Below, piece after piece: positions 30,185-53,057 of a stretch of DNA of 64,000 bases. Within the stretch, counting starts at the first letter, position 1; every line of letters begins with the position of its first letter. The stretch comes from Theocolax elegans (lineage: Eukaryota > Arthropoda > Insecta > Hymenoptera > Cerocephalidae): positions 48,679,589-48,743,588 of the forward strand of contig CM047426.1 of NCBI GenBank assembly GCA_026168455.1, given 5' to 3'. A program made the position numbers and the translations under genes. Under the pieces are notes generated by a model. It searched no databases. It was not told the DNA's origin and was given only the letters and a program-made list of their open reading frames with translations.

Positions 30185-30519
30185 TGGTAAACTAGATTGA
30201 AATTCAATTTATTTTAATATTTATTGGGGTAAGTTTAACATTTTTCCCTCAACATTTTTTTTTTTTATTTAAGAGGGTTACCACGATGTTGTTCAGATTA
30301 TCCTGATATTTTTTGTGCCGGAGTATATTTTCATCTTTTGGATTAATAATTTCTTTAATTAGAATATTTATTTATTATTTTTTTTTATGAGATGGATTTG
30401 TATCAAAACGTGTAGTAATTTATTATAAAAATTTAAATGTTTCAATTGAATGATTAATACCTTATCCAAGAAGGTTACATAGATTTAATGAAATTCCTAA
30501 AGTTATAATTAATTTTTAA
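30185..30519 (+). pseudogene. cox1: NUMT: C-terminal part of mitochondrial cox1
   Basis: Nuclear copy of mitochondrial cytochrome c oxidase subunit I. Read with the invertebrate mitochondrial code (TGA = Trp, ATA = Met), the segment gives IQFILMFIGVSLTFFPQHF, GLPR followed by SDYPD, then FVSKR and SIEW and FNEIP before a TAA at 30,517. This is the expected COX1 C-terminus. TGA inside SIEW is a stop in the nuclear code, so it cannot be a working nuclear gene. One TAG and some drift in the SSFG region show decay. It is directly followed by trnL and cox2 in insect order. Confidence 0.85.
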
Positions 30520-30583
30520 AGTGGCAGATTAGTGCAATAAATTTAAATTTTATATATATATATAATTAAAATTATCTTTAAAA
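30514..30583 (+). pseudogene. trnL2: NUMT: mitochondrial tRNA-Leu(UUR)
   Basis: TGGCAGATTAGTGCAATAAA (30,522-30,541) is the D-arm and anticodon-side part of insect mitochondrial tRNA-Leu(UUR). The ends TTTTTAA and TTTAAAAA can pair as an acceptor stem. A (TA)n run has expanded in the variable/T-arm region. It lies between cox1 and cox2 as in the ancestral insect mitochondrial genome. Confidence 0.75.
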
Positions 30584-31190
30584 ATTATATTATGAGGACA
30601 ATTAAGATTACAAGATGAAAATTCATTAAATATATTAAATATAGTTTTATTTTATGATTATATTATAATAATTATTATAATAATTGTATTTATAATTATA
30701 TATATATTAATTTTTATATTTAATAATAAATTTTCTAATCGATTTTTATTAGATGTTCAGATAATTGAAATATTATGAACTATTATTCCTATTGGAATAT
30801 TAATGTTTTTAGTTATTCCTTCATTAAAGATTTTATATATAACAGATGATTTTGATAAACCTAGGTTTATAATTAAAATTATTGGAAATCAATGATATTG
30901 AATTTATGAATATGAAAATTTATTTGGTGATTTTCGTTTATTAGATGTAGATAATCGAATATTGATTTTAAAAAATTTAAATATTCAATTATTAATTACA
31001 TCAAATGATGTAATTCATTCATTTACAGTTCCTTCATTTGGTTTAAAAGTAGGTGTAGCTCCGGGGCGATTGATAATAATTAATTATGTTTTTTTTTCTA
31101 TGATGTTATTTTGTTTTTTATATAATTTCACATATATTTCATTTGTTTATATAGTATGGTTTAAATTTATTTATTTAAATGTTAAAGTTA
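30584..31190 (+). pseudogene. cox2: NUMT: mitochondrial cox2, 5' two thirds
   Basis: With the mitochondrial code the region reads WGQLRLQDENS at its start, a hydrophobic N-terminal helix, WTIIPIG (TGA for Trp), then IIGNQWYWIYEYE, DVDNR and [22 protein letters not shown]. These are COX2 hallmarks, including the aromatic WYW segment and the HSFTVPS copper-site region. After GVAPGR (near 31,070) the copper-binding Cys motif is not recognisable, and the similarity fades by about 31,190. The open nuclear-code frame 30,962-31,195 is a part of this copy and not a gene. Confidence 0.9.
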
Positions 31191-33422
31191 CTTAAACAGT
31201 TATGTATATACATATATATATTTGCCAAAAGATATGTCTGTAAGTTAACAGGTTGGCGCGTAGCTCACACGTATTTATGTATAAAAGTGTTGAGTCCTGC
31301 GCCTCGCGTTTCCGTGTGTGGGTTTCAGGTGTCGTACGTATACACGTTTTCTCGCTCACCCGGTGAACTTTGTGTTAGTAAAATAGTGACGCGCCTCCAA
31401 ATGTAAAGGTAATGTACAGTTCCTTTCTTTTGTTAGTTTTATTTTACTGTTAATTGCTAAAATTTTTTTTTGTCATTTAATACTCTTATTAAATGTTGTA
31501 TTTGTGTCTTCTCTTTTGGGGGGTATTCGTTGTAATTTCGTATATTGAAGTATGTGGCCCTCTTTATTTATTTATGGTTGTTGTTATGTTAAAAGTCGAA
31601 AATGTTAATTGCTATAACTTTTGATCTATGGCCTCTATTGCTCGCGGAGAGGTGTCGTATTACTCGTACAGTGAAGAATTTTCATTTTTCGAGTAAAAAT
31701 TGTTATTACTGTTTGCTTTCATCTTTTTGGGTTTTTTTATGTGTGGATTTGGTTTAGCACGTGCCCGACATGTTAATTTTACTATTATAACAATTTATTT
31801 TTCAGTAGTTGCAAAATTGTACGTATTTTTAGAAAATATTTTCGAATTTGTGGAAACAAAGTACCCATGATTTTGCAAATAAGGTTGGTGATTATTATTT
31901 TTGATAAATGAGATTTTTGAAATTTTGTTAACAATAATTATCAAATTGTTTATATTTTTGCTCTCTTATTTGGCTAGAGTTTTTCTTCGATTTTGAATTG
32001 CTCGTTGAATGTGTAATTCGAAATTATACAGGTGTTTTCGTTGTGCGGTCGATTTTGTTAATTAACAAATTCATATCTCGGTTTCTATCCGGACTATGAT
32101 GGTGTGTTTTGGTGAACTTTGTTAACTAAGGGTAAGGTTTTTATTTTTACAAAAAGAAATCCTTAGTTAATTTATTTATTTATGTTATTTAATTTATTTA
32201 TAAATTTGTTTATTATAACTAGGGTATATTTTTATAAATATGGATTGTTTGGTATGCAAGCTCTATAAAACTATATGGGTAATTTGTTCGAGTGTTTATA
32301 ATTGTTAGTTAACAAATTGATATCTCAGTAACTAATGGTTTCATGGTAACAAAATTTGATTAGATTTTGTTAACTAAGGTTCCGGTTATTATATTTCTAA
32401 GTATAACCGTTTTGGCGATTTATTTGTTGATGGGATTTAATTTATTTATAATTTGTTTATGATGAGGATGACCTGTTATTCTGATTTTGGATTGTTTATT
32501 GCATAAATTATTAATCAGTTGTGAATGCCCATGGTGCGTCCGTTAGCCGCGCTAATAGGACCGCACTACAGTTCGTTAACCGCCGAATTCTTATTCCTTA
32601 TATTATGCGAGTCGTCTGAGGGCCGCGGAGAAAAAAAAACAAATATAAAAATCTTATCCAACTTAATTAATATACTAGCAACAAATACCTCGGTCGCTAA
32701 CGCTCCCTCGGTTGATTTAAACTTTTGATTTATTTTGTTGTATCAATATTAATTATTAGGAAAACATTTAATCTATATAAAGTTATAAAGTTATTAGATT
32801 TAATTTTTCATTTTCAAAGTTTAGATAACTATAATATATTAATACTAAGTAATAATAATCTTACTTATTTGTTAACATTTATTATTGTCTATTTTTTAAT
32901 GCACATAATTACAATAATAATTGGATTTTATTATTCTTCAATTAAAACACTCTTTGATTTTATATTATTATTATTATTCTTATGGCGTGTCCAATCTTAT
33001 TTCCTTTGTAATTATTATATGTGAAAAAATAAATAAAATTACAATTGTATGAATACAATATAAAAAGATAATTAGGTAACCTTTAATTTATGCACATTTA
33101 CATTTTACATGTATATATGGTTCTCGTAAATTGATCATGTCAAAAAATAAAAATCATGAAAAATAGAAAATTTTATTAAATAAAAATTTAAAATAAAATA
33201 TTATTTATAATTATTAATGATTGATTTTCACCCATCGATTGCTTAACATTTGGAGGATAAAAGTTCTATATATATATAAAAAAAAAAATTAAAGTTAATT
33301 TATTATTTTTTAATTTATTTATTTATTTATTTATTTTTTATTATTTTTTTCAAATAAATTAAATATTAAAAATATATAATAGAAAAAATTAAAGTTAAAG
33401 TTAAAGTTAAATAAAAATTAAA
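31191..33422. other. unassigned stretch inside Gypsy-A
   Basis: No gene recognised. A G+C-richer patch at 31,245-31,410 contains TATAAAAG (31,279) and could be a promoter region of an unidentified element. A second G+C-rich patch lies at 32,525-32,640. The open frame 32,725-33,024 gives a hydrophobic low-complexity product. The interval is A+T-rich with ATTT and TTTA runs at 33,300-33,345. Confidence 0.45.
32050..32465. repeat. degenerate tandem duplication
   Basis: 32,056-32,210 and 32,303-32,465 share a unit that starts GTTARTTAACAAATTSATATCTC, passes through TTTGTTAACTAAGG and ends in ATTTAATTTATTTATAA with TTTGTTTAT. The copies have diverged by substitutions and indels. Confidence 0.65.
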
Positions 33423-33605
33423 TTCCATCAAAAACCTTTCTCCCTTTCTGTGACGTCAATCTATTTGTATGACGTAATTGTCGAAGTGACGATATTTTTT
33501 GATAAATAGATGTATCACATGTTTTTTGACGCACTGTTGGGGGTTATTGTTTTTAGTTGCTTTTTTAAAAGGGGTAAAATTTGAAGGGGGAAGGGGTGGT
33601 GGTAT

Positions 33606-34262
33606 GGGGTGTACCCTGACCACCTAGACATCGTCTTCAGGAAGTGACAATTTTTATTGCATATTCAAGCAGGGTGGCACACTAATTACCAGTAGACGAT
33701 GTCCAGATGACCCGGAGGTCACCCTGACCACCTGGACATCGTCTTCAGGAAGTGACAATTTTTTTTGCATATTCAAGCAGGATGGCATACTACTTACCAG
33801 TAGACGATGTCCAGATGACCCGGAGGTCACCCTGACCACCTGGTCATCGTCTTCAGGAAGTGACAATTTTTTTTTGCATATTTAAGCAGGGTGTTACACT
33901 ACTTACCAGTAGACGATGTCCAGATGACCCGGAGGTCACCCTGACCACCTGGATATCGTCTTCAGGAAGTGACAATTTTTTTTTGCATATTCAAGCAGGG
34001 TGGCACACTACTTACTAGTAGACGATGTCCAGATGACCCGGAGGTCACCCTGACCACCTGGACATCGTCTTCAGGAAGTGACAATTTTTTTTTGCATATT
34101 TAAGCAGGGTGGTACACTACTTACCAGTAGACGATGTCCAGATGACCCGGAGGTCACCCTGACCACCTGGATATCGTCTTCAGGAAGTGACAATTTTTTT
34201 TGCATATTCAAGCAGGGTGGTACACTACTTACCAGTAGACGATGTCTAGATGACCCGGAGGT
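33606..34262 (-). repeat. left 108-bp tandem array, about six units
   Basis: Each unit carries an internal hairpin, GACGATGTCCAG and CTGGACATCGTC separated by about 25 bp, followed by a spacer with GCATATTCAAGCAGG. The period is 36 codons, so reading frames stay open through the array (33,654-33,866 and 34,071-34,310). The translations are repeat products and not proteins I would call. Confidence 0.9.
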
Positions 34263-34289
34263 AAAAAAAAATAAATCAACAACATAACA

Positions 34290-34670
34290 ATTCAAAAATT
34301 GAAGCAGCACCTTTAAAGCGTAGCGCTAATATAGCTAAGTTTTTAACAAAGCGTTAAAAATAAATTAATTAATAAAGAAAATCATATCTAAAGTGCACAC
34401 TTAATTCAAATATTTCCAAATATATATATAAGCAGCACCTTTAAAGAGTAGCGCTCAAAATTTTAAAATGAATCATCAATAGAACAATTCAAAAATTGAA
34501 GCACCACCTTTAAAGCGTAGCGCTAACATTGCTAAGTTTTTAACAAAGCGTTAAAAATAAATTAATTAATGAAAAAAATCATATCTAAAGTGCACACTTA
34601 ATTCAAATATTTACATATATACATATAAGCAGCATCTTTAAAGAGTAGCACTCAAAATTTCAAAATAAAT
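34290..34670. repeat. tandem pair, about 190-bp unit
   Basis: 34,290-34,478 and 34,482-34,670 are near-identical copies: AACAATTCAAAAATTGAAGC, then CACCTTTAAAGCGTAGCGCT, then ATATCTAAAGTGCACACTTA and a final TTTAAAGAGTAGC. There is no coding signal. Confidence 0.85.
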
Positions 34671-34996
34671 GAACAATATATATTAAACAAAATATATGAA
34701 CAATATATGTCAGTTCCAAGCCTGTAATCGCAGAGGGAAAATGTAATTAAACAAAAAAATTATAAAACAAAAAAATAATGTCACTTCCCGAGGACGATGT
34801 CCAGGTGGTCAGGATGACCTCCAGGTCAACTACCCATCCTCCTTTAATTCCCTCACCTTACCCTATTTTAACTCTTTTTAAAAAACTCAAGTTCATGATA
34901 ATGAGTCAATAAATGAAAATGCTACTCCTCATTTAAAAAAAAAAAATTAGATGTTATTGCAGAACTTAAGAGTAAACAAAAAAAAATAAAAATAAT

Positions 34997-35200
34997 ATGT
35001 ATGATGGTAAAATAGCAAATAATTATTTTAATGAATCTTTAATAATTGAAAATTATTTAGGTACAATGTCTGAAATTTGTAATTATTGCCATGCAAAACA
35101 TTTTTCATGTGAATGTAATAAAAATAAATTATTTTCTAGTTGTTGTCAAATGGGTAAAGTAATGCTACCTGACAATGCTACATGGGTGAAAATCATCTAA
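34997..35200 (+). pseudogene. Helitron-like helicase fragment (N-terminal Cys/His segment)
   Basis: The short frame contains LGTMSEICNYCHAKHF, then CCQMGKV and a Leu-Pro. This order (LGxM, paired cysteines, His-Phe, CC, GKV, LP) is the conserved segment ahead of the replication initiator domain in many arthropod Helitron proteins. Nothing of the HUH or helicase domains is present. It lies in the core of the foldback element. A partial 108-bp unit is at 34,787-34,835, about 160 bp upstream. The identification rests on one short motif. Confidence 0.55.
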
Positions 35201-35372
35201 CGTGAACATTTGACGTTGTGATATGCAAGAAAACAAAATGAAAAAAATTATATATTTTTGGTTTCTCTGGACCAATTACAGTTTCTAGAGTACCTGTTTA
35301 CAGTGGGCATACAGGGTCAGTTGATTTACTCAACGTATTGAAGATTTTTAATTTTTACATTCCAGGGGAATT

Positions 35373-35915
35373 CGTAACCGGACATTTTGCCGTATGACAC
35401 TTCGCCGTCGGACCCTTCGCCGTAAACATTTCGCCGTATGAGACCTTTTGCCGTATAACATTTCGCCGTATGAGACATCTCGCCGTATAACATTTCGCCG
35501 TATGAGACACTTTGCCGTACGCGATTGGGTTATAGGGTTATAGGGTTATTGGTTGAGCAGGGGGTTTGGGGGGTGCAGCCCCCCATTACACTTTTGTTGT
35601 TACACACATACAGTATCGGTAAATTATTTGTAATTATAACTAGACTATAATAACAAACAATTTTTCAATTTCAATATATGATTTTGTTTACACTCAAAGT
35701 TAATCGCCTAAGTACTTGTGATTAATTGATTAGTTATCATTCGTTTTTCATAAATATTTTTTCCTACTTTACGGCGAGAAGTTCCTTACGGCAAAATATC
35801 ACATACGGCAAAATTCCATACGGCGAAATGTCCCACACGGCGAAAAGTAACACGGCGATTTGTCCGACGGCGAAGTGTCCAACGGCGAACTGTCATACGG
35901 CAAAGTGTCATGGAA
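35373..35915. mobile_element. small foldback element with CGCCGTA subrepeats
   Basis: Nine units of TTCGCCGTATGAGAC type (35,383-35,525) on the left face nine inverse units of ACGGCGAAATGTC type (35,770-35,912) on the right. Between them are about 245 bp. CCAGGGGAATT stands immediately outside both ends (35,362-35,372 and 35,916-35,926), which fits a 9-11-bp target duplication. Arms of tandem subrepeats plus such a duplication are typical of FB-like, MULE-related elements. The open frames at 35,726-35,968 are repeat translations. Confidence 0.8.
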
Positions 35916-35967
35916 CCAGGGGAATTACATATATTTTGATATATAAAACATAAACATCTTGAATACA

Positions 35968-36104
35968 TCCCTAATACAAAATCTCACGTGAGATCTCAAG
36001 TGAGATTTCATGCCAAAATCTCATGTGATATTTCAATTGGAGAGGTGTTTAAATTTGCTAAATAATAAAAAATCAATTTCTCACGTGAGATTTTGTAATA
36101 GGGA
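35968..36104. mobile_element. 137-bp MITE
   Basis: TCCCTAATACAAAATCTCAC at the left and its inverse (one mismatch) at the right, with internal palindromes CTCACGTGAG. It is too short to code and no target duplication is obvious. Confidence 0.7.
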
Positions 36105-37809
36105 TAGAAAATTTTAATAAACATATTTTATGGAGTATACATTGAATATAACTATACCTAATTGATAATAACAATAAAAAAAATTAATTAACAAATTCTT
36201 CCATTTATAAAATATATGCAATGTTTCCATATAATCAATTTAACATAATTTTTATATTTGTAATATAAATTATATATTTTTATTATTTCTTTTAGTAGTG
36301 ACTTCTTTTATCTTAAATAACAATTTTACTCTTTTTCTGAGTTTTATTTTCGTACGAGATCGACCCTAATTGATAATGTTCACATTGTCTATTCAAATTA
36401 CATTCGTAACAACTTACTTCATTAAAATTAATTTTTTGGGGCTCACATCTACTCCATTTCCATTGATGGACTTGCATAGTACCTTTGAATGGAGAAAACA
36501 ATTGTTAAGAAATAATGTTTATTTTTAGTCAAAACAGTAAAGCATGTAATGATCAGCATCGATTATTTGTTATAAAAGAAATTTGGACAGGGGATGTTAC
36601 ATGCCAGGGGAGTTTACATAGATTGTTTTTTAAATTTTGTTACGTTAACATTTAAAATTTCCACATCGGAATAATACTGTTTTTATGTAGTTACTTTATC
36701 TGAAATTTACTCTATGAATTGGTTTTAAAAAATTTATTAGTTTTCCAATTATCCTCTACCAGAGGAATTACATTAAAAAAGGTAATCGCTGAATTACCAC
36801 AACAACATGCCCGTATTTTTTGCTTAACATCATGAAATATTAAAAATAAAATTTTTACCTCTAAAGTAAACCAAAAGTTAACAATTTCACCTGGTCAGAA
36901 AAATGTTTTATGTTTACAATTAATTTTAAAGACATTAATCATAACACAGCTATTATTAATAACAAGTTTGTTACAAAGTTCAGCAAGTTCAGTGCACTTC
37001 AAAAATCAGTAAATGTTCAGATTTTCAACTTAATTTTAATTGTGATTATCAAAATGAACAATTAAGTTTTGAACCCGTTTTTGAAATAAAGAAATACGCC
37101 TATAATCGCACCAGTTAATATGCGATTATGGCCTTCTTACAGCCAGGGGACGTTACATTTCAAACTTTAAGCAACTTAAACTTGGCAATAAAATCAACTT
37201 TTATCAAGTTTCACGGCTGACTTACATTAAATTACATATATTGTACTTAGAATATATTATTCGTAATTTTATATATGATATAATGGGATATATTTCACTA
37301 TTACACAATTGTGCGCGTTAGATGATTTTCACCCACATATCCAAAAGAATTAAAAAATTTGGTTATAGGTAATTCGAAATATAGTACGAATTTTCGTCAA
37401 AACATAAGACAATACAACAATTCTTTAGCATAAATTATTATCCTCATTAATGCGTTCATTAATTAATGAAATACTAAAATCAGACAATGTATGTTGACAA
37501 TATTGTAGCAATATGACATTATTCCAACAATATCGCTGCAATATGAAGTGCTGTCTGGGTAGGAATGTATCTATTCCTTTATACCTAATGAGTATTTTCT
37601 TAACCTTGCATTTTTTTAGAAAAGAAAGTTTTGGAAACAAGATTGTACTCTATTCTCATTTAAGGGAAAAAAATTATAGTGTATTTGGTATTTATTACTC
37701 AAAGTACTATTAACACAAATCACATTTTTATATTTTCGGTTTGGAAACTTTACATTTTAACCTTTAGACTACCGAAATTTTAGAAATGAAATCGTCCTTT
37801 AAAAGTTTC
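36105..37809. other. core of the foldback element, no gene recognised
   Basis: A+T-rich. A motif, CCAGGGGNNNTTACAT or near variants, recurs at about 36,590, 36,605, 36,758 and 37,143, and is also what the small FB element inserted into. The minus-strand frame 36,313-36,501 has CYECNLNRQCEHYQLG, a Cys/His cluster I cannot assign. Confidence 0.5.
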
Positions 37810-39178
37810 TGAATTGCCACCCTGCTTGAATATGCAAAAAAAATTTTCACTTCCCGAAGACGATGTCCAGGTGGTCAGGGTGACCTCCGGGTCATCTGGA
37901 CATCGTCTACTGGTAAGTAGTGTACCACCCTGCTTGAATATGAAAAAAAATTGTCACCACCCGAAGACGATGTCCAGGTGGTCAGGGTGACCTCCGGGTC
38001 ATCTGGACATCGTCTACTGGTAAGTAATGTGCCTCCCTGCTTGAATATGCAAAAAAAATTTTTACTTCCCGAAGACGATGTCCAGGTGGTCAGGGTGACC
38101 TCCGGGTCATCTGGACATCGGCTACTGGTAAGTAGTGTGCCACCCTGCTTGAATATGCAAAAAAAATTGTCACTTCCTGAAGACGATGTCCAGGTGGTCA
38201 GGGTGACCTCCGGGTCATGTGGACATCGTCTACTGGTAAATAGTGTGCCACCCTGCTTGAATATTCAAAAAAAATTGTCACTTCCTGAAGACGACGTCCA
38301 GGTGGTCAGGGTGACCTCCGGGTCATCTGGACATCGTCTACTGGTAAGTAGTGTGCCACCCTGCTTGAATATGCAAAAAAATTGTCACCACCCGAAGACG
38401 ATGTCCAGGTGGTCAGGGTGACCTCCGGGTCATCTGGACATCGTCTACTGGTATGTAGTGTGCCACCCTGCTTGAATATGCAAAAAAATTGTCACTTCCT
38501 GAAGACGACGTCCAGGTGGTCAGGGTGACCTCCGGGTCATCTGGACATCGTCTACTGGTAAGTAGTGTGCCACCCTGCTTGAATTTGCAAAAAAAATTGT
38601 CACTTCCTGAAGACGATGTCCAGGTGGTCAGGGTGACCTCCGGGTCATCTGGACATCGTCTACTGGTAAATAGTGTGCCACCCTGCTTGAATATGCAAAA
38701 AAAATTGTCACTTCCTGAAGACGATGTCCAGCTGGTCAGGGTGACCTCCGGGTCATCTGGACATCGTCTACTGGTAAGTAGTGTGCCACCCTGCTTGAAT
38801 ATGCAAAAAAAATTGTCACTTCCTGAAGACGATGTCCAGGTGGTCAGGGTGACCTCCGGGTCATCTGGACATCGTCTACTGGTAAATAGTGTGCCACCCT
38901 GCTTGAATATGCAAAAAAAATTGTCACTTCCTGAAGACGATGTCCAGGTGGTCAGCGTGACCTCCGGGTCATCTGGACATCGTCTACTGGTAAGTAGTGT
39001 ACCACCCTGCTTAAATATGCAAAAAAAAATTGTCACTTCCTGAAGACGATGTCCAGGTGGTCAGGGTGACCTCCGGGTCATCTGGACATCGTCTACTGGT
39101 AAGTAGTATGCCATCCTGCATGAATATGCAAAAAAAATTGTCACTTCCTGAAGACGATGTCTAGGTGGTCAGGGTACA
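37810..39178 (+). repeat. right 108-bp tandem array, about twelve units
   Basis: This is the same unit as the left array in opposite orientation, with twelve occurrences of CATCGTCTACTGGTA (one as CATCGGCTACTGGTA). Homopolymer A runs of 6-9 bases at the unit joints vary. Because 108 is divisible by three, long frames are open on both strands (37,951-38,421, 38,489-39,043, and 38,413-39,036 minus), giving 36-residue repeats such as LPEDDVQVVRVTSGSSGHRL. Single-base A-run changes break the frames, so I do not call these as genes. Confidence 0.9.
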
Positions 39179-39414
39179 CCCCATACCACCACCCCTTCCC
39201 CCTTCAATTTTTACCCCTTTTAAAAAAGCAACTAAAAACAGTAATCCCCAACAGTGCGTCAAAAAACATGTGATACATCTATTTATCAAAAAATATCGTC
39301 ACTTCGACAATTACGTCATACAAATAGATTGACGTCACAGAAAGGGAGAAAGGTTTTTGATGGAAGCAGCTTAATATAATATAGATTTGACTGGGCTGTA
39401 CCACTGCGTGCTGG

Positions 39415-40555
39415 TTATTGTTTATTTTCGTGACCTAGTTTCCCTATAGGAATAGGAATTGGCTTTGGTAATTCATAACTATGCTTCAAGAGATCCATGT
39501 GGACTGTTCTTGTCTGATCTGTTTTTTTTGTTTTTACATTATGAGTTTCCTGATTCGTTTCTATAACTTCATATGGGCCTACATAATCATTGTCCATTTT
39601 TCCACTTTTAGGTTTCCTAATGACATATACCATTTCGCCCTCTCTAAAGTGTACCACTTTACGTTTCTGATCGTAGTAAAATTTTGACCGATACTTAGCT
39701 TGAACTAAATTCATAGCTGCGAGCGTACGTAACTGAGCCAATGCTTCAGTTGTATCGCTAAAATAAGAGTCATACGTTAACAATTCTTCTTTTGGTGGAA
39801 AACTCGATGGCATCCTTGCCTTTTGACCAAATACAATTTCGTGTGGGGTGTATCCGGTAGCTTCATGCACGTGTGTATTGTAAGAGTGTTGTGCTAAGGG
39901 CAACAGTTCGTCCCATTCGACGCAGTTTTCTAAATACATTTTTAGGTATTCATTTAAAACTGAATTTTGTCTCTCTATACTGCCTTGCGATTGCGGCCTA
40001 TAAGCGCTTGAACAAAATTTATTTATTTTAAAGATTTCGGCAAACTTTTCGAGTAATTTATTAATAAAGTGTGAACCTTGGTCTGAAATTAGGGTCACGG
40101 GGGAACCAATGTAACATATTAATTTTTCAGTGATCGCGCGTGCTACTTCATGCGCTGTAGCGTGCTTAACCGGTACTAGTACACAAAATTTACTTAAATT
40201 ATCCTGCATAGCCAGAATGTATTGATTCCCTGCTTTTGTAGGTGCCTTTGGGCCAACAAAGTCTATTGACCATTTGGTAAATGGTTTAGAGGCTGTATCC
40301 GTAATTAACATTGGTAACCTAGTTTTTACGAGCACTAATTTTTGAGTTTGGCAATTTGGACAACCACGAACGTATTGACGTACGTCTGCCTGCATATTTC
40401 TCCAGTAGTATTCGTTCGAGAGTCTTGTGTATGTCTTAGTCATACCTTTATGACCGCCCATTGCTGATTCATGGTATTCTTGAATTAAACGATAACAATC
40501 CTCTACTTTAGGGATAGGTAAATTATTTTTAAAAAATACTATTACAATGTCTCTA
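39415..40555 (-). pseudogene. pol: Gypsy-A pol: integrase
   Basis: This part would join cDNA to chromosomal DNA. Open from 40,593 down to the stop at 39,415. The HHCC zinc finger is seen as GGHKGMTKTYTR...YYWRNM...CPNCQ. The catalytic D,D,E core follows: WSIDFVGP, LISDQGSHF and PQSQGSIERQN, with the expected spacing. The C-terminal domain has YDQKRKVVHFREGEMVYV and a GPYEVIE barrel strand. All key residues are intact. It continues in the same frame as the macro-like and OTU segments upstream, from which only a TGA at 40,594 separates it. The stop lies about 50 bp before the foldback insertion. Confidence 0.9.
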
Positions 40556-40899
40556 CCCCGAAACTGTTTATTGCACAGATCGATGAAGTAATTTCATTCT
40601 GTAAGCGACAAAACTGCAAGATTCCTAATAATTCCTACGGATTTTATATCAAACTTTGCAACCAATGCCTTTAAAGCTTTTATGCATCGTTTTAAATCAG
40701 GTCTAACTAGCTTGCTATTTATATTCTGTTTTATAACCATTCCAAACAACCTTACGCCTTTCGTCTCAGACATTATAATTTCCCCTACTTCGCGTGACAT
40801 GCTTCTCAATTAATCCTCAGATATATATTGACGTTCTATAAGTGCCTCTAAAATGTCAGTTTTAAGAAATATATCAGCCGTTAATAAGTGTACTAGATT
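40555..40899 (-). pseudogene. pol: Gypsy-A pol: macrodomain-like segment
   Basis: A segment of about 115 codons between the OTU domain and the integrase. It begins DNLVHLLTADIFLKTDI, has VGEIIMSETKG and LFGMVIKQ, then a helix (PDLKRCIKALKALVAKF), then DIKSVGIIR and NYFIDLCNKQF. This alternation (NLVH/AD start, strand, K-rich strand, long helix, IKSIxI strand, final helix) resembles ADP-ribose-binding macrodomains of the Poa1 kind. A TAA (40,810) and a TGA (40,594) interrupt it in frame; the TGA stands directly before NYF, where a single-base change from TGG would explain it. The diagnostic glycine-rich phosphate loop is not clear, so this is a fold-level suggestion. Confidence 0.45.
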
Positions 40900-41640
40900 A
40901 TCCTTGTATGCAAAAGGATGCTCGTCTAAGACTTGTACTGTTGTGAAAGGATGAACTTCGCTATTATCTCCTACCCATGGCGGCGTAACATAAAACGGTC
41001 GTGCTTCAGCTACTAGGTATCGTGCCATGGCTTCTCTACGCTTTGGCCTGTTATCCTGAGTATCTATGTCACTAGAATTATTTTCGTTATGCATTTCAGG
41101 ATACGTTAGTTCGCTTAAATTTGGTGTATCTGTGGCTATTCTGTTTGGCGTCATTGGCCCTATAAGGATAGTACTATCGTTCATTGATGTTATGTAAGGT
41201 GTAAAGTGTCGGTCTATAAGATGTAGATGAATATATGCCGCGTTGTCATCCGCCTTGCAATAACAGTAAATAAGACCACTCGGAAGGTAATAATGGATAC
41301 AAACGTTAATGTTAAAATGTTGTGAAAAAACATAAACGCAATCTATATCGGCAAATTCGATATCGGAGGCTAATATTTTACGTGCCTCTTCCGGTACACC
41401 ACAGTTTTCAAGGGCTGGGCTTTTTAGTAAGCAATCGCGCAACTGACGTGGAGTATAATTAAAATTTAATATTTTTATTACTGAGTGGAAAAAACAATTA
41501 CCGTCACCTGGAATGTCGGTGTCGTGTTCCTTGGGTAATTCAGGTTGAGCACATTCTGTGTGCTGCGAATATACATAAAATCTCTCTGCTAGAGTATCTA
41601 ACGCATTTTCGTTCGTTCTGCTTACGTTTAAGGAATGCAT
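40810..41640 (-). CDS. pol: Gypsy-A pol: OTU-like cysteine protease domain
   Basis: An open frame of 276 codons within the pol frame. Residues 42-52 read DIPGDGNCFFH, the OTU signature with Asp46 and the nucleophile Cys49. Residues 138-149 read HLHLIDRHFTPY, giving catalytic His145. The spacing of 96 residues and the intervening VYVFSQHFNINVCIHYY strands fit an OTU fold. OTU enzymes cleave ubiquitin or ubiquitin-like conjugates. Here the domain follows a charged linker and precedes a macro-like segment and integrase. All three catalytic positions are intact. It could process the polyprotein, remove ubiquitin from retroviral or host proteins, or block immune signalling; the sequence does not say which. 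A TAA at 40,810 ends this frame. Confidence 0.8.
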   Translation of the reverse strand: MHSLNVSRTNENALDTLAERFYVYSQHTECAQPELPKEHDTDIPGDGNCFFHSVIKILNFNYTPRQLRDCLLKSPALENCGVPEEARKILASDIEFADIDCVYVFSQHFNINVCIHYYLPSGLIYCYCKADDNAAYIHLHLIDRHFTPYITSMNDSTILIGPMTPNRIATDTPNLSELTYPEMHNENNSSDIDTQDNRPKRREAMARYLVAEARPFYVTPPWVGDNSEVHPFTTVQVLDEHPFAYKDNLVHLLTADIFLKTDILEALIERQYISED

Positions 41641-41665
41641 GTCTTCCTCATGAATATGTGTTTCT

Positions 41666-42114
41666 GGAGCCGCGGTGGCTCATGGGTAGAGCTCCCGACT
41701 CTCACACCGAGGGTCGTGGGTTCGATCCCAGACGTGTACCTCTGAAAATTTTTTCATGTGCATTTTTCGAACACCGCGACTCAGTGGCTCGGCGTGTCAC
41801 TATAATGTGACGCCAGTTCGGGTGCACATGCGTTTCGTGCACTTGTCAGTGCATGAGAGGCACGGGCATCTGAACTATAGGGAACGTTAGGGACGCGACG
41901 ATGTAAAGAGGATCGCGGTGGTTCCATCGGGAGGACAGGAAACTGTAATTATTAGACTAATTACAGTGACCGATGATATCTTCCGATGAACACAAGCACC
42001 ACTGTTTCAACTACATGTGCTTTGTTTACAGACACACCGTTCACCTCCGTCGCTGATTAGCCCTGGCAGCATAAATAGAGCGACGTTAAATAACATAAAA
42101 AAAAAAAAAAAAAA
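41666..42114 (+). mobile_element. tRNA-derived SINE inserted in pol
   Basis: The 449-bp unit starts GGAGCCGCGGTGGCTCATGG, with an A-box-like TGGCTCATGGGTAG and a perfect B box GGTTCGATCCC (41,719). It ends in a run of about 18 A. AATATGTGTTTCT stands before it (41,653-41,665) and after it (42,115-42,127), a 13-bp target duplication typical of LINE-driven insertion. Insert plus duplication is 462 bp, a multiple of three, so the pol frame resumes in phase on the far side, although the SINE itself contributes stops. Confidence 0.95.
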
Positions 42115-42127
42115 AATATGTGTTTCT

Positions 42128-42912
42128 AGGATCTCAGGTGTAATAATTTGATTGTAACTCGGATTATCGCTTTCCATACTTATTTCTTCGTCTTCCTCCA
42201 TGGGTAGTATATGATAATACTCCGTTCGTGGCGCGACGTTTATTGTTTTACGCGGTGTATTTGGTGAACTTACTTCAATATTATCGCCAGGTGATTGCAT
42301 TGGTACTGCCTGCGTATCTGGAACATTGCCACTTTCAGACCTAGGGTTATCAAAGTTTTTCGGGTCACCATTTTGATCGTCGCCTTTATTCTCCTCATTT
42401 TCCCAAATATCAATACGCAAACCTGTTTTACCTTGACTATTTTGCTTTTGCAATTCCATGAATAGGTTTATTTTATCACCTATTTCTTCTCCGAATAATT
42501 TTCCTTGTAAATTATGTAATGATTGCTTAGTATTTGTTGACACATTTTTTAATAGTTGCTTAGCTGATTCTGATTGTTTGGGCGCAATCTCCATGGACGA
42601 ATCATAGTTAACGTCAGCCGTGAAGTTTACTCTTTCATCTTGCTTGCTTGCATTTGTTTCCGAGTTAACTATTGATTTTTGATTGTCTACACAATCTGCA
42701 TAATCGTGTTTATCAGCTTTGATTGAGGCTATTAATATCTCCATTATGCGTTTTTCTTCAACTGGTGATAATAAGTATTGTCCGGTTGATTTCTGATCCA
42801 ATTTTACGTTTGTTAGTACGCAAGCGAGTTCTACTGAGTCTATGTAATCGAGTTTATAATTATTTGGTTCGACTGTAGAACGTGTGAGCCATTTGATTGG
42901 GGCTTCGTTCAT
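42128..42912 (-). pseudogene. pol: Gypsy-A pol: linker with BAH/Tudor-like segment (second part)
   Basis: It starts after a TAG (42,913) that interrupts the pol frame. The first 80 residues (EAPIKWLTRST, NNYKLDYIDSVELACVLTNV, EKRIMEILIASIK) continue the folded segment begun before the stop. The rest is acidic and low in complexity, ending at the SINE. Together with residues before the stop (GEFLAIRNANEDFYLCLTL) it has the strand pattern of a small chromatin-binding barrel such as BAH or Tudor. No family can be fixed by eye. Confidence 0.45.
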
Positions 42913-43974
42913 CTATTCCGACACATCGGCCAAAGTCAAACATAAATAAAAATCTTCATTCGCATTTCTAATTGCTAAAAATTCCCCTTTCTTGTAGATT
43001 ATGTTATCCCTTGATTTGGACAGGTTGGTATTTTTACTCTGATCAACTTTTATTTTTGCATCTTTGGGTTGCGATTCGAGATCTGTAACGGCTCCTAAAC
43101 TATTACTATGTGTACTTGAAACTTCCGATAAATTTTCTTTAAATTCTGATTTATGCGGCTTCAATGTATTTTTGTGTATTCCCTTTTTGGGCAATTTTCG
43201 AATTATTTTGTCCTTAGAAGGTCTAGGTGTACTCACAATACAAATTTCGTCTCTCATATTAACTTCCTTCCGTATATAAGGGAGTCGTTTATTAGATTCT
43301 GCTTGGCTTAATATCGGTTCATTGGCTGGATGATTGATATTATCGGAAATTCTATTGCAAATAGGAAACTTCTGACCCGTCTGGGTTTTTGATTTCTTTA
43401 TATACTTTCTTTTAGTCCTTATTTTTGACAATTCTTCGTTATCGTCGGATTCGTTAGTTGAATCTAAATCGGAATCTCTTTCAATTTGTTTTGATAACCG
43501 AGGAACCTTAGGGTCTTCGTCCGAACCTGATGACGTCAATCGCGTTCTTTTTCGAGTTTTTGGCTGCCCGTATTTTCTTGTACGGAAGGTGTATAATACT
43601 TTTGCCGGTGATTTTGATTGAATAAAAACATCTTCTTCTTCTTGTTTATCTGCTAATGCATACAATTCGGCTTTTGAACATTCTGGATTTACTTCTCCTT
43701 CTAATATTACCGGGTTCCGGGATAACGCGTCCGCGTTCGTATTACGTGGACCTGGGCGATACACTACTGTAAAGTCGCAGCCTCGTAACTCCGCCTTGAG
43801 TCTATTGAACCTTAGGTCAGGTTTCTTTGTGTTGTGGAAATGTTTTAATGGCTCATGATCAGTGACCACGGTGAATTTTCTACCGTATAAATATGGCTGA
43901 AATTGATCTTTGGCGAATACCACCGCTAGTAGTTCTCGATCATATGTAGAATAACGAAGCTCTGGACCTATCAA
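42913..43974 (-). CDS. pol: Gypsy-A pol: RNase H end and charged linker
   Basis: The first 95 residues complete RNase H: YSTYDRELLAVVFA (catalytic Asp/Glu region), VVTDHEPLKHF and the terminal NTNADALSRNP. About 200 residues of highly charged, Ser/Lys/Glu-rich linker follow, including basic clusters (KTRKRTRL, RTKRKYIKK) that could bind nucleic acid or act as nuclear import signals. The end turns into a folded segment (GEFLAIRNANEDFYLC). Ordinary Gypsy elements have little between RNase H and integrase; here the insert is more than 700 codons. It is in frame with upstream pol after a TAA at 44,002. Confidence 0.85.
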   Translation of the reverse strand: MIGPELRYSTYDRELLAVVFAKDQFQPYLYGRKFTVVTDHEPLKHFHNTKKPDLRFNRLKAELRGCDFTVVYRPGPRNTNADALSRNPVILEGEVNPECSKAELYALADKQEEEDVFIQSKSPAKVLYTFRTRKYGQPKTRKRTRLTSSGSDEDPKVPRLSKQIERDSDLDSTNESDDNEELSKIRTKRKYIKKSKTQTGQKFPICNRISDNINHPANEPILSQAESNKRLPYIRKEVNMRDEICIVSTPRPSKDKIIRKLPKKGIHKNTLKPHKSEFKENLSEVSSTHSNSLGAVTDLESQPKDAKIKVDQSKNTNLSKSRDNIIYKKGEFLAIRNANEDFYLCLTLADVSE

Positions 43975-44001
43975 GCAACGAGAGGCATACGCGCAAGCAT
44001 G

Positions 44002-45900
44002 TTATTTGCCAAGCTCTCCTTGCCCTAATATTGCACCTATGGCGTAGTCGCTCGCGTCGGTCGTCAATATAAACTCCTTCGTTAAATCGGGGGCTACTAC
44101 TACAGGTGCTGTGATTAAAATCTCGCGTATTTTATCAAATGCTTGTTGTTGTTCTTCTCCCCATCTTATTTCTTTATCTGTTGTTTTTCTTGTCAGCTGC
44201 GACAATGGGTACGTAATCTTCGCGAAATCCTTTATGAACCTTCTATAATAGCTAGCAAAACCGAAGAATTGTTTTATTTTTTTCTTTGTCGTAGGCACCG
44301 GATATTTTGCTACAGCTTCTAATTTCTTGGGATCGGGACGAATTTTTCCTTTGCCGACAATATGTCCTAATACTTTAGCTTCTTTTTGCAGGAACTGACA
44401 TTTACCAGGTTCAATCGTAAGATTTGCGTCGTCAAGTCTTTTCATTAGACGACGAAACCTTTTACCATGTTCTTCGAGATTTGATGCAAAAACTATGATG
44501 TCATCGAGGTATACATACAATTCTTGTCCTTGCAATCCAACTAGGATTAAATCCATAAGTGATTGAAATGTAGCCGGGGCATTTTTCAAACCCATTCCCA
44601 TTCTTGTATATTCATAATGACCATACGGCCCTACGAATGCCGTCTTTTTCGCATCGTCTGGGTCCATAGGAACCTGATAAAAACCCGTCTTTAAATCTAC
44701 TGCCGTTATGTAATTTGCTGACGCAACCCCTTCTATTATATCAGTCATTATTGGAATTGGATAGCTATTGCCTATTGTTATCTCATTCAGTTGTCTAAAA
44801 TCGGTCACCATGTGCCAACGTTTTTCACCATTTTTGCCCCTCTTTTTTGGCACTACCCACATCATTGAGGAGTATGGACTCTCCGAGGGTCGTATACTTC
44901 CTGCCTCCAGATTTTGTTGAATCAATTTTTGCATTTCTTCGCGAATCGTTGCTGGGTGTCTAAATTTCTTTGAGCGTACTGGGATGTCAGTGGTCGTTAA
45001 AATCTTATGCGTAACTAAATGAGTGGCTTTTAATCTCTCTCCGGGTAAGCCAAATAAATGTGGTCGTTCCCTAATCAACTCTTTTATATGTTCTATTTCT
45101 TCCTCGTTATTATTACTTAAAGATTCCTGATCTAATTGTTCAAATACTAACGTGGCCCGATCCTTTTCTTCGTTCTCAAAAATTCTTAAAATGTTTGCAC
45201 GGCTTTCTATATTCCCTTCACTCTCGATATCTTTATCTAAATCGAATTCCCCGGTTTCCTTAATTGTTTCACAGGGTTCTAACACTACTTCTGGTGGCCC
45301 TATTTCTAAAACTTTATCACTTTTATTAATACAAAGGGCATACGCTTTCCCTCCTTGATTCTCGGTTACGAAATTACCGAATAAAATGTCCGAGCCTAAG
45401 TCTAGGAGTGGCACAAAACCTACTTTTTCCTCATTTAGCACGCGAGCATAAATAACTTGACTAGTGCGAGGGGGAATAACAAAACATTCATCTTTAACGA
45501 AGGGGATTACCAAGTCATGAAATTGTATACATTTTTGGGCCGCGTTGACTAAACCTTTATATTTAACAAACACATCCCAACCTAATAATCCATCAGTATC
45601 TATCGGGAAATCATTGGGCATAACATGCATTTCGCATAATAAATCATTTAACTTCAACTCTACTTTACCTAATGTTACGCATTCTCCAGGGGTTACACCA
45701 CTAATCGCGACCACGTGGCTAGTATCTACATAATTATCTGCCCTTACGCAATCTAGTTTTATTATAGATAAATCCGCACCAGTATCGGCATAAAATCGTC
45801 CTACTCCGCCTTTTAATTGTTTACTATGTAAGTCTACCGTGGGTGGTTTACGGCCGGTTTGCGTGAAGCGAATTGCACAAACACGCAACGATTCATGCAT
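44002..45900 (-). CDS. pol: Gypsy-A pol: protease, reverse transcriptase, start of RNase H
   Basis: The aspartic protease has YADTGADLSII near residue 38 and GLLGWD further on. The reverse transcriptase runs from RSKKFRHPATIREE through WVVPKK, DFRQLN, DLKTGFYQV (first palm Asp) and YLDDIIVFA (catalytic pair, near 44,510) to the connection, FFGFASYYRRFI. RNase H begins at LTTDASDYAIGAIL and is cut by a TAA (44,002), nine codons before the next open part in the same frame. The true start is probably by -1 frameshift from gag, since the pol frame is open upstream of the ATG at 45,900 into the gag overlap, with a slippery-looking A/T run at 45,896-45,912. Confidence 0.9.
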   Translation of the reverse strand: MHESLRVCAIRFTQTGRKPPTVDLHSKQLKGGVGRFYADTGADLSIIKLDCVRADNYVDTSHVVAISGVTPGECVTLGKVELKLNDLLCEMHVMPNDFPIDTDGLLGWDVFVKYKGLVNAAQKCIQFHDLVIPFVKDECFVIPPRTSQVIYARVLNEEKVGFVPLLDLGSDILFGNFVTENQGGKAYALCINKSDKVLEIGPPEVVLEPCETIKETGEFDLDKDIESEGNIESRANILRIFENEEKDRATLVFEQLDQESLSNNNEEEIEHIKELIRERPHLFGLPGERLKATHLVTHKILTTTDIPVRSKKFRHPATIREEMQKLIQQNLEAGSIRPSESPYSSMMWVVPKKRGKNGEKRWHMVTDFRQLNEITIGNSYPIPIMTDIIEGVASANYITAVDLKTGFYQVPMDPDDAKKTAFVGPYGHYEYTRMGMGLKNAPATFQSLMDLILVGLQGQELYVYLDDIIVFASNLEEHGKRFRRLMKRLDDANLTIEPGKCQFLQKEAKVLGHIVGKGKIRPDPKKLEAVAKYPVPTTKKKIKQFFGFASYYRRFIKDFAKITYPLSQLTRKTTDKEIRWGEEQQQAFDKIREILITAPVVVAPDLTKEFILTTDASDYAIGAILGQGELGK

Positions 45901-45905
45901 TTTAT

Positions 45906-48162
45906 TTAATTTACCCGTGGGCTGCTCGACTCCACCGGTTGTTGGCGTCGAGCATCCTGGGAGTTTAAAGAATCTCCGTGATTTTGATCATCGAATGAAA
46001 CGCGATTAATTGATCGGTCCCGCGAGTCGTTACTTCTATTATAACTAAAGTCATCGTTGTATCTTCTACCCATTTGACCTCTATTTTTTGTTTGAGTTTC
46101 TGTAATTATTACGCTCATTCCTCGAGTTCCCGTTATTGTAATTTCTGTTAAAATTTCTAGAATCATCAAACGATCCTTCGTACCGCTTATCAGAAAAGTT
46201 TCGATTTCGGGAAGCATAATTCGTTACATTATTATTATTATTACTATTACGACCATGATTTGAACGGTTGTTATAATTTATAGAATTTTGTAAGTTATAA
46301 TTCCTATTACGTTTCATATTATCGCGAGAAAAGTTGGATCTTCTTACATCACGAGGTGTTTCGGAATACATTTGCGTCATCGGCAGTACTGGGTACGGCG
46401 CGTAAACTACCGGAGTTGGATTAACTTGCTGAGTCGGGATTACCGATTGTTCTATTTTTTCTTTGCTGATTCGGCCGCTTTTTACCGCGTTTTGTAAAGA
46501 ATAACATTGCTCGAAACTGTGACCGACGATGTGGCAATATTCACATAATTTATTTTCGTAAATTCTCCTGTGACAATTTTGGGCGGTATGTCCACTAACT
46601 CTATATTCGCTGCAAATTTCTTCTGCAGGTGCTCTGTGGATTTTCGCGGAATCTTGGGCTTGATTAGAAACATTTAACGAGGCCACGTGAGATACTAGGT
46701 TTTTAAGGATATTTTCAAATTGAGCGACACTATTAACTGTTTGATTTTCGTATTCAGCGCGACGTGCTCCCGTTTTTTGTTCAAAATTTACGGCTTCAGC
46801 TATCGCATTACGTAAATCGGCCGGGTTTCGTGAGCGTACTTGGTGTTGTATTTCTCCGACAAGACCGAACAAAAATTGATCTAACGCTTCCCGATCAGCT
46901 TGTGTTTTATACGTGAATCTTTCGAAATCGTGCAAGCTACTATTTGCGTCATAGATATTTAATAGACGGTTATGCAACGTTTGTACACGAAGCCCGTAAT
47001 CTCCTACTCCTTCGCCCGGACTTTGACGAATAACCTTTAACTCAGCTAAAACCTTGTCTGCTCCTCCAATATTGCTATATTGCATATTAAGGTCAGCTAA
47101 CAGACCTTCGATCGCATGATATTGAGTCAATCGCGTAGTGTAACCATCAGCAGCTCGTCCCCGGAATTTAGTTGCTAAGGAATTTAATACCCACCGTTCT
47201 GATTGAGGGCCAAATTCACGTACTACATCTCGAACTGCTCGACAAAATAATGCTAACATGTCGGGGTTCCCATCATATGTCGGTATTGTACCTATAGCCT
47301 GATGTAAGGAAAACGTCCAATAAGAGTCTTTCGTTTTTTCATTCCGTGTATTATGGCTTGAATTATGCATATTCATTACGCAGTTGTCAAATTCCCGTTT
47401 TAAATATTTATCCGTATTAAATTCGTAACCGCCTACATTTTGACCAATAATGTCATTACACACGTCCACGGTATTTAGACTAGAGGAACGATATTTATTA
47501 TAATTGCTAAAATCAAAATGGCCGCAAGAACTAGACGAATTACCTTGATCTGAGATGGCTACTGGTGAACGAAAAATTACTGAGTTTTGCGCGATTGATA
47601 TGCCGGAATCATTTACAGTTTCACTTTTCTCGCCCGTTTCTTTAATGACTGGGGTGCTCGCGTACTTTAATTCATATTTAGAGGAGTCTTGTGCGTCATA
47701 ATTCCTCTTTGTATTATTTAAGGTAGCTTCGACGGCAGCTCGAGCTATAATCTTTGCTTGCGCGTTTTCCCGTTCGATTTTCTCAATATGTTGTAACTCT
47801 TTCAGGCGTTTAATTGAATTTTCTACACGAACCTTTGTACGCTGGAGTAATTGTAAATCTTCCGGGGGAAAAATTTTTGAGTCAAATACCTCGATACTTT
47901 TCATTTTATTTAAAGCATATTGTAACGTATCTATACTAGAACCAGCGAGAGCCACATCGGCGGCGGTAAGTGCATAACGTAAGTCCACGTAAGGTTTATT
48001 TTTCGGCGTAATAGGGATATTTATATCGGCAGCGATACTTGGTACGCTGGGCATAATTTCGCCAATAGGCGTAACAACCGGCTCCTTAACCTTCTTTGAG
48101 GAATCGTCTTTCGAAGTATTACCGAAAAGACTAATTTTAAACTCGTTTTCTCTGTTTGCCAT
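45906..48162 (-). pseudogene. gag: Gypsy-A gag, one frameshift
   Basis: The main frame runs 48,162-46,081 (693 codons). The N-terminal region (residues 110-170) is rich in charged heptads (coiled coil). The middle, around IGTIPTYDGNPDMLALFCRA, matches the capsid-like domain of Gypsy Gag. Two zinc knuckles follow: the first has lost one cysteine (CSEYRVSGHTAQNC), the second, CEYCHIVGHSFEQC, is intact. The C-terminus is Asn/Arg-rich and probably binds RNA. Near 46,085-46,200 an indel moves the reading to another frame that continues to 45,906 (ending SSSPRVN) and overlaps the start of pol. The start ATG is 0.5 kb inside the 5' LTR, a normal leader length. Confidence 0.85.
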
Positions 48163-48663: not shown

Positions 48664-49418
48664 TGTTACGAGTGAAGGGTCAGTATTTCCGGATTCTAGC
48701 GGGTAACCGTTGGCTCACTCGGACGAAACCTAGTGAGCTTAGGCGAAGGAGGATTGGGATGAATGAACGGTAGGACTCAGATGTAAATTGAATACTGGAT
48801 TTATTCGATACTTTAGGTACGAAAGAGAGATGCTAAGTTACTAGGTGCAACGACGAGTCCGGTCTATTCTCAATGGGTTAATTGGCGTATTGGCTAGTTG
48901 GTTGGCTGATTGGCTGATTAGCGGTTGAAGATGATTGAATGGTTGGATGATGATTGTAGTGGATCGCCGGTCACGCTGGAGTCTTCGTGTTAATGGGAGT
49001 GGAACTCTGTCCCAAATCTAGGGAGGGATCGTTCCTTCGTTCGTCGTCTGATTAAGCGTGGCAAGAGGGTAAGAGTGCTAAGAGAGGGCCTCCGTGGGCG
49101 AATCACCCCTTCTTATAGCCTCGTTGTGTGACATCCCCTCTTTCGATAATTATTGGTGGGAGCTTAATTTCCACGTGTTGCACCTAGTATCTATGTGAAT
49201 TTTGTCAAAGTGTAGATATGATTTTTTCGCGGGTGCTGACGCTGAGAGACAGCGCTTCTTCGCGAGAACGCTCGAGAACTGGCGTGAGCGGATGTAACAT
49301 ATCATATTACGCTTCGTGTCTTAACTTCAGAATGCTTTCTTATTCTACTTTATATTTTGGGCATTTATAAAACTAATTATCTATTAATATAATAATCAAT
49401 ATGTTACCACTCCTAACA
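48664..49418 (-). repeat. 5' LTR of Gypsy-A
   Basis: 755 bp, TGTTACGAGTG to CACTCCTAACA on the + strand. It differs from the other LTR at ten positions that I could see, without indels. Confidence 0.95.
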
Positions 49419-50008
49419 GTCGGACGTTTTCAAATTTGTCAAATTTTGAAATTGTTCAAATTTTTTAAATTTTTCAAATTTTTCAGATTTTTCAAATTTG
49501 TCAAATTTTTCAAATTGTTCAAATATTTTAAATTTTTCAAATTTTTCACATTTGTCAAATTTTTTCAAAATTTTTAAGTTTTTCAAAACTCAAATTTTTC
49601 AGATTATCAAATTGGTCAAAGTTTTCAGATTTTTCAAATTTGTCAAATTTTTCAGATTTTTCAAATTTGTCAAATTTTTCAGATTTATAAATTTGTCAAA
49701 TTTTTCAAATTGTTCAAATATTTTAAATTTTTCAAATTTTTCACATTTGTCAAATTTTTTCAAAATTTTTAAATTTTTCAAAACTCAAATTTTTCAGATT
49801 ATCAAATTGGTCAAATTTTTCAAATTTATCAAATTTTTCTAACTTTTCAGAATTTTTCAAATTTATCAAAATTTTTGAATTTTTTTAAAATTTTTGAATT
49901 TTTACAAAATTTTTGAATTTTTTCAAAATTTTTGAATTTTTTCAAAATTTTTGAATTTTTTCAAAATTTTTGAATTTTTTCAAAATTTTTGAATTTGTCA
50001 TATTTTTA
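49419..50008. repeat. satellite array, right part
   Basis: This resumes the array cut at 26,280, starting with the duplicated GTCGG and continuing GGACGTTTTCAAATTTG. It contains a roughly 190-bp internal duplication (49,498-49,615 and 49,690-49,805) and ends in six near-perfect units of TTTTTCAAAATTTTTGAATT. It joins a Gypsy fragment directly at about 50,008. Confidence 0.9.
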
Positions 50009-51568: not shown

Positions 51569-52447
51569 GCCGGGCCGCTGATAAGGCTTACCAAGAAGGA
51601 CCGTAAGTTTGAATGGCTTGAGGAGCAGCAACAGGCATTCGATCAGATTAAAGCGCTGATCGCAACTGCTTCCGTCCTAATGAGGCCGAAGTTCGACGTG
51701 CAGTTTGTTATACAGACGGATGCAAGCGACACTGGCATTGGTGCAGTACTTCTCCAGGTGATTAATGGAGAAGAGGCAGTACTGGAATTCGCCAGTAGGA
51801 CGTTAAACCAGGCCGAACGCAATTATAGCGTTACGGAACGAGAGTGCCTGGCGGTTATATGGGCGATTGACAAATATAGACCTTATATAGAAGGCTACCA
51901 TTTTCGCGTTATAACCGACCACAGTAGCTTACGTTGGCTGCGTAGCTTACACAGCCCAATGGGTAGATTAGCGCGATGGGCACTAGAGTTGCAGGGTCAC
52001 AGTTTTGATGTGGAGCACCAGAAGGGCGCCCTAAACTACGTACCCGACGCGCTATCGCGGATGAGCGAGGAGGAGGCCCTCGCCATCGACGCAATATTTT
52101 GGGTAGAGGATTCCCAAGACGAGTGGTTTCAGAATTGGTTGCAACGAGTAAAGTCTAGTCCAAGAAATTTCCCTCGTTGGAAGTGTGTCGGAGGACGACT
52201 ATACTTCCACAAGCCAAACAAGTTAATCGATGAAACACTCGGAGACGAGGACGCGTGGAAGTTAGTGATTCCAAAGGAACACCGAAAGACGGTCCTCGAA
52301 GAAAGCCACGACTCTCCTACATCTGGCCATGCCGAACGTGAGAAGACGTTTGCCAGTCTGGCTGAGTATTATTACTGGCCAGGTTATTATGCCGCTGTCT
52401 CATCTGTCAACAATGCAAGGTGGATCAGCGACCACCTGCAGGACTGA
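51569..52447 (+). pseudogene. pol: Gypsy-B: RNase H and start of integrase zinc finger
   Basis: RNase H: FVIQTDASDTGIGAVL, NYSVTERECLAVIWAI, VITDHSSLRWL and YVPDALSRMS. The following linker has GGRLYFHKP. The HHCC finger begins ESHDSPTSGHAEREKTF and YYYWPGY. A frame change near 52,400 then removes the cysteine pair from this frame; CQQC is found in the next frame. 52,026-53,057 is repeated in inverse orientation at 54,686-55,713. Confidence 0.85.
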
Positions 52448-53057
52448 TGGGAAAACGCACGGTCGAACGTCCCTGGCAAGTCGTGGCAGGGGATATCACC
52501 GAACCCTTTGTACGGAGCAAGGGCGGATACGAATACATCCTCGTATTCTTGGATCTATTCACCGGGTGGGCGGAGTGTGTACCAATTCGCAAAGCCAACG
52601 CGAAAACCATTCTCAAGGAGTTCAAAGAGAGAATAATTTTACGGTATGGTACTCCTGAGGTATTTCTGCCGGATAAGGGTACCGAATTCAAGAATAAGGC
52701 CGTCGACGAATACCTACATGAGGTGGGGATACATCATACCACCAATCCGCCATATTTTTCCCAAGCGAACCCGGCTGAACGTGTCAACCGAACGTTGAAA
52801 ACCAGGATTGTGGCTTTCATAGAGGAAAATCACAATACCAGGGACGAGAAATTACCGGAGCTTGTATTCTCGCTGAACAACACCGTACACGAATCAACGG
52901 GTACAACTCCGACAATGTTGAATTACGGACGACAGCCTATGCCTCCCGGTACCATCAAGAGGAACCAATACCGAGCCGGCATTGAAGTGGAGCAGTGCAC
53001 TAAAATAGGGCTGTTGCAAAAGCGACTTAAAAAGCTCAAAGAAGTAGATGAGTCTGC
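52405..53057 (+). pseudogene. pol: Gypsy-B: integrase, 3'-truncated
   Basis: The catalytic core is present: VVAGDITEPF, LPDKGTEFKN and NPAERVNRT (D, D, E), then PELVFSLNNTVHESTGTTP. The reading breaks at KEVDES, 53,057, where the sequence changes abruptly to A+T-rich DNA of another element. The inverse copy at 54,686 continues past this point, which shows that the break is a rearrangement breakpoint. Confidence 0.85.

Follow-up and report, generated by a model that had tools for sequence, protein, structure and literature searches.

An OTU domain and a predicted TARG1/DarG-class macrodomain ahead of the integrase in the Pol of an insect LTR retroelement

In a 64,000-nucleotide stretch of the genome of the hymenopteran Theocolax elegans (GenBank assembly GCA_026168455.1, contig CM047426.1, positions 48,679,589 to 48,743,588 of the forward strand; hereafter the window, whose numbering is used throughout), a long terminal repeat (LTR) retroelement spans positions 26281-49418 on the minus strand, and the part of its Pol that links RNase H to integrase contains an OTU domain followed by a putative TARG1/DarG-class macrodomain. 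A single minus-strand frame, interrupted by stops, runs through reverse transcriptase (RT), RNase H, a charged linker, the OTU domain, the macrodomain, an H2C2 finger and the integrase core. The original prediction, drawn from the letters of this DNA, had placed a protease at the head of this order; RT, RNase H, the charged linker, the OTU domain, the macrodomain and the integrase stand in the order given, and the protease is represented by retropepsin families that score below the Pfam cut-off ahead of RT and by a DTGA motif recognized by eye. Our reading, to which we would give an even chance, is that the two domains form a de-conjugating module that acts beside the integrase. Accounts of LTR retroelements generally name the same small set of enzymes, to which the present Pol would add a conserved pair of eraser-type domains beside the integrase, one directed at ubiquitin and one at ADP-ribose.

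The OTU domain and the putative macrodomain

The segment at 41173-41589 (minus strand) has an OTU fold, as judged from its structure model: residues 41-150 of an AlphaFold2 model reach a predicted local distance difference test (pLDDT) score of 91-97, all 42 matches in the PDB at E ≤ 0.001 are OTUs (Foldseek), and VIA also places the segment among OTU domains. The call had been made earlier from a DGNC motif with a His 96 residues away, and both the call and the spacing are borne out (Cys at 41494-41496, His at 41206-41208); a chance DGNC motif is ruled out by the fold. In an alignment of 30 rows (A5, from which the short matches P0060 and P0062 were left out), the predicted catalytic Cys of the GNC motif and the C-terminal His are invariant in all rows that cover them (24/24 and 25/25, respectively), the His of P0056 sitting within a divergent tail, and the relatives share 27-47% identity with the window sequence. 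The third residue of the OTU triad is an Asp or Asn at His+2 in OTUB1 and yeast Otu1, and some OTUs arrange this residue otherwise. Here, the His+2 Asp/Asn is not kept, the position being Thr in 24 of 25 rows, including the window, and Lys in the other.

A linker at 40948-41172 (minus strand), with an RYL-A-EARP-type motif common to the relatives in the alignments, leads to the segment at 40531-40947 (minus strand), which a sequence profile, together with residue conservation and the Foldseek and VIA matches of a weak structure model, supports as a putative macrodomain of the TARG1/DarG class; a call that had been made at the level of the fold is thereby narrowed to a class, mainly by profile, and its best range becomes slightly wider. 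A trimmed profile of nine hand-picked rows (A7) matched TARG1 in the PDB at E = 3.1e-6, with the next match at 0.81, and a profile built without window rows (A9; five of the same rows, minus two window pieces and two relatives) still gave E = 6.1e-5, whereas untrimmed profiles were weaker (E 0.18-0.49). Identity between the window pieces and the relative P0006 is 39-64%. According to the profile alignment to TARG1 (chain numbering offset of 6), the catalytic Lys (TARG1 Lys84, DarG Lys80) is kept in 16 of 17 rows and lies at 40729-40731 in the window. The Asp125 of TARG1 is not kept (Ser in 11 and Tyr in one of 12 rows). DarG likewise keeps the Lys only and lacks the Asp partner of TARG1, yet is active, the partner being given as Glu125 in a review (PMC7050489).

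Weighing against the assignment of the two domains, the Pfam OTU family (PF02338) has no match in the window and only weak matches in two of the 30 alignment rows (best E 0.018), and Pfam macro families are absent from the window and from the 21 relatives searched. In addition, the structure model of the macrodomain is weak, even though TARG1 and DarG are its best fold matches, and the class assignment therefore draws mainly on the sequence profile.

Possible functions of the module

The macrodomain leads straight into the H2C2 finger of the integrase, and after maturation of Pol the module would remain on or near the integrase in the particle and in the pre-integration complex. The OTU domain would then act on Pol or host proteins, taking off ubiquitin or a tag related to it, and ADP-ribose on proteins or complementary DNA (cDNA) would be removed or bound by the macrodomain. 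In this way, integration would be stopped neither by degradation in the host nor by marking of the PARP type. Because the module lies beside the integrase and the macrodomain is DarG-like and Lys-only, DNA or the integration complex would be an attractive substrate. It is also tempting to speculate, in a narrower form that we regard as rather unlikely, that the macrodomain is a DNA de-ADP-ribosylase joined to the integrase, which would strip ADP-ribose from the cDNA of the element itself, or from its ends, in partnership with a deubiquitinase. If this were true, an animal host would mark reverse-transcribed DNA with ADP-ribose as a defense or repair signal.

Where Gypsy elements have a chromodomain on Pol, it has a targeting role. 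A comparable role for the present module, in which the OTU domain and the macrodomain would bind ubiquitin and ADP-ribose without full catalysis and direct the integrase toward chromatin that is modified or toward sites of repair, is about as improbable in our view as the DNA-directed form above. It would fit the loss of the TARG1 Asp125 position and the lack of an Asp at Cys-3 in 12 of 24 OTU rows, and certain Gypsy elements do have a chromodomain on Pol (PMC12440569). However, a pure binder would need neither the Cys nor the His that is invariant in the OTU rows, and DarG is active without a dyad partner (PMC7050489). A de-conjugating module remains our preferred reading, and the present data would fit counter-defense, repair control and targeting alike. 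The original prediction had suggested counter-defense or self-processing; both can be put only conditionally, because the window copy cannot encode the whole protein and activity lies beyond what a sequence can tell.

Organization of Pol

The first part of pol (44002-45900, minus strand) comprises the retropepsin-like stretch, RT with a YLDD motif and the start of RNase H (PF00078, E 2.8e-30; PF17919, E 1.5e-14) and ends with a stop at 44002; the second part of RNase H follows at 43785-43974 (minus strand; PF17917, E 1.9e-16). The charged linker and a putative barrel-like segment occupy 42128-43784 (minus strand) in the translations, with a stop at 42913; no Pfam family scores above the cut-off there, and a portion of the barrel-like segment compared with the PDB matched only nanobodies, at E values of at least 0.18. 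The integrase at 39415-40491 (minus strand) consists of the H2C2 finger (PF17921, E 1e-19), the DDE core (PF00665, E 1.9e-14) and a GPY motif, with the D-35-E spacing and the GPY motif read by eye.

The interval from RNase H to the start of the integrase measures 3156 nt in the window, or 2694 nt without a 462-nt unit resembling a short interspersed nuclear element (SINE), as compared with 297 nt in the Gypsy-like record L001, so that the window Pol is about 800 residues longer than this one comparator. L001, L002 and L003 are three of four plasmid records matching the integrase, the weakest having been left out; RNase H has no match in L002 and L003, whose RT and integrase lie farther apart than those of L001, and none of the three records matches the OTU or macrodomain profiles at E ≤ 10. 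The records, which contain a Gypsy-like integrase and RT, are labeled as Wolbachia or Bacillus licheniformis plasmids, and they probably represent eukaryotic contamination.

Tymovirus OTU proteases serve both in polyprotein processing and in deubiquitination. By analogy, the OTU domain could act on Pol as an additional protease whose cleavage releases the integrase, with the macrodomain as a scaffold, a possibility for which the position of the OTU domain within a polyprotein and near the integrase speaks, as do the numerous replicases and polyproteins of RNA viruses among the best 50 of 378 fold matches in a viral library. On the other hand, Pol already has a retropepsin-like stretch, the macrodomain is left unexplained, and nine of 62 relatives have a related OTU outside such a Pol, beside a DRLWW motif. 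We hold a processing role to be distinctly unlikely, less probable than a binding module.

Relatives of the module

Three protein searches, which admitted only proteins of query-like length, yielded 62 distinct relatives, and the counts that follow describe fragments and not frequencies. By local profiles, seven relatives carry OTU-macro, eight macro-integrase and one OTU-macro-integrase, while 19 have the macrodomain only, 17 the OTU domain only, nine an OTU domain with the DRLWW motif and one none of these. The profiles were made from the window and the same 62 proteins, so that matches are partly by construction, and some are short (15 residues for the OTU of P0003). Among the 36 matches of the macrodomain search, nine have a precomputed integrase Pfam domain. 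An insertion private to this locus, the outcome that would have refuted the original prediction, is ruled out by the recurrence of these segments. Scans of viral contigs and a scan of genome contigs gave no confirmed relative, and phage records gave no match to the OTU domain or the integrase.

This recurrence also bears on the idea of a captured passenger without function, retained by chance in a few copies. The interrupted macrodomain of the window would suit such a passenger, as would the shortness of the fetched relatives, some of which are visibly truncated or rearranged. Nevertheless, the relatives keep the domain order and the key residues in spite of their divergence in both domains, and we consider a passenger very improbable, the least probable of the explanations discussed here.

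The DRLWW group consists of P0052, P0053 and seven further proteins, with the motif downstream of the OTU domain. Two members are named, from Nasonia vitripennis and Cephus cinctus, and the group has a macrodomain match in none of its nine members; we presume that it may belong to a Helitron or another mobile element. A tree of 29 of the 30 A5 rows (P0034, with fewer than 75 residues, was left out) separates Pol-linked from DRLWW-linked OTUs; the window falls between the two groups, on a long branch that has no starred support; P0001, which is Pol-linked, is also on a long branch near the window. Pol-linked and DRLWW-linked OTUs may have a single origin, and their kinship suggests a possible exchange of OTU domains between mobile elements.

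Structure and state of the retroelement

The retroelement is bounded by a 5′ LTR at 48664-49418 (minus strand; 755 bp, 98.7% identical by blastn to its partner) and a 3′ LTR at 26281-27035 (minus strand). Both start with TG and end with CA, and a 5-bp target-site duplication, CCGAC, is read on each side. Repeats of the short-period TTTTTCAAATT type flank the retroelement at about 24058-25988 and 49408-49960, and because they occur on both sides, it was seemingly inserted into a satellite array. Between the LTRs, a gag-like open reading frame of 693 amino acids (46081-48162, minus strand), with a CX2CX4HX4C knuckle recognized by eye and no Pfam family above the cut-off, is followed by pol and then by an env remnant of the baculovirus F type in two frames (28635-29589, minus strand). 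Baculo_F (PF12259) scores above the cut-off in both frames (E 3.4e-9 and 6.3e-6), which upholds the earlier description of the element as env-carrying in so far as a remnant is present. The LTRs with their duplication, the order of protease (below the cut-off), RT, RNase H and integrase, and the GPY motif recognized by eye in the integrase identify the element as a member of a Ty3/Gypsy-type (Metaviridae), env-bearing LTR retroelement lineage.

The window copy itself is dead. In-frame stops lie at 44002, 42913, 40810 and 40594, the last two within the macrodomain, env is broken, and other elements have inserted. A SINE-like insertion occupies 41653-42127 (plus strand), a range that takes in a 13-bp duplication on both of its sides; it has a poly-A end and, by eye, a tRNA-like head; ARAGORN called no tRNA in 26000-49500. 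Between pol and env, a DNA transposon-like insert (33423-39365), whose 98% complementary arms are made of tandem repeats of about 108 bp, begins about 50 bases past the pol stop. In the same interval, a plus-strand stretch at about 30196-31192 reads, by eye and with the invertebrate mitochondrial code, as the end of COX1 and COX2; it probably represents mitochondrial DNA inserted into the nuclear genome. This mitochondrial-like stretch, the env type and the OTU relatives from a wasp and a sawfly would all fit an insect host. Next to the env remnant, positions 27693-28379 form a near-palindrome (about 680 bp, 91%). Outside the retroelement, inverted repeat arms of 1032 bp at 52026-53057 and 54684-55715 are 99.7% identical and perhaps represent a young DNA transposon or foldback element.

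Comparison with known systems

Searches aimed at the combination found no report of an OTU domain together with a TARG1/DarG macrodomain in the Pol of an LTR retroelement in the literature outside subscription papers, preprints and Repbase. OTU domains as such are already known from mobile elements, namely Ginger1 (PMC2836005) and Helentrons (PMC4067079). Ginger1 DNA transposons have an integrase-type transposase, terminal inverted repeats (TIRs) and a C-terminal OTU domain, for which a role of ubiquitin in transposition has been proposed, and they share with the retroelement the link between an OTU domain and a Gypsy-type integrase (H2C2, DDE, GPY/F). In contrast to the retroelement, they have no RT, LTR or env, their OTU domain follows the integrase, and no macrodomain appears in the parts described. 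Membership in Ginger1 is ruled out by RT and RNase H in frame, the LTRs and the position of the OTU domain ahead of the integrase. Helentrons and Helitrons are likewise mobile elements that may carry an OTU cysteine protease, but they are rolling-circle elements and the OTU domain is an additional open reading frame.

The closest solved fold is that of the nairovirus vOTU (PDB 7jms, 6oat and 3phw, among others), solved with ubiquitin or ISG15; it belongs to the L protein of an RNA virus, and with about 15-20% identity the likeness is one of fold only. TARG1/OARD1 and the DarG macrodomain share with the retroelement macrodomain a profile match across the whole domain, the best fold matches and the catalytic Lys. 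They differ in that TARG1 has Asp125 where the retroelement has Ser, a partner that DarG also lacks, and in that the retroelement macrodomain lies inside Pol.

Among insect env-bearing Gypsy elements, the errantiviruses resemble the retroelement in their LTRs, gag-pol-env order and Baculo_F-type env. However, their integrases are described, in the Troyka paper, as having no GPY/F motif (PMC12440569), whereas the retroelement has a GPY motif (VGPYEV) and the extra OTU-macro module; because of the GPY motif, assignment to the errantiviruses proper was not adopted. A conserved eraser-type pair beside the integrase of an LTR retroelement would suggest that ubiquitin and ADP-ribose tags both act on retroelement replication. 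The retroelement offers a direct test of ADP-ribosylation as a restriction of reverse-transcribing elements and of the movement of OTU domains among unrelated mobile elements.
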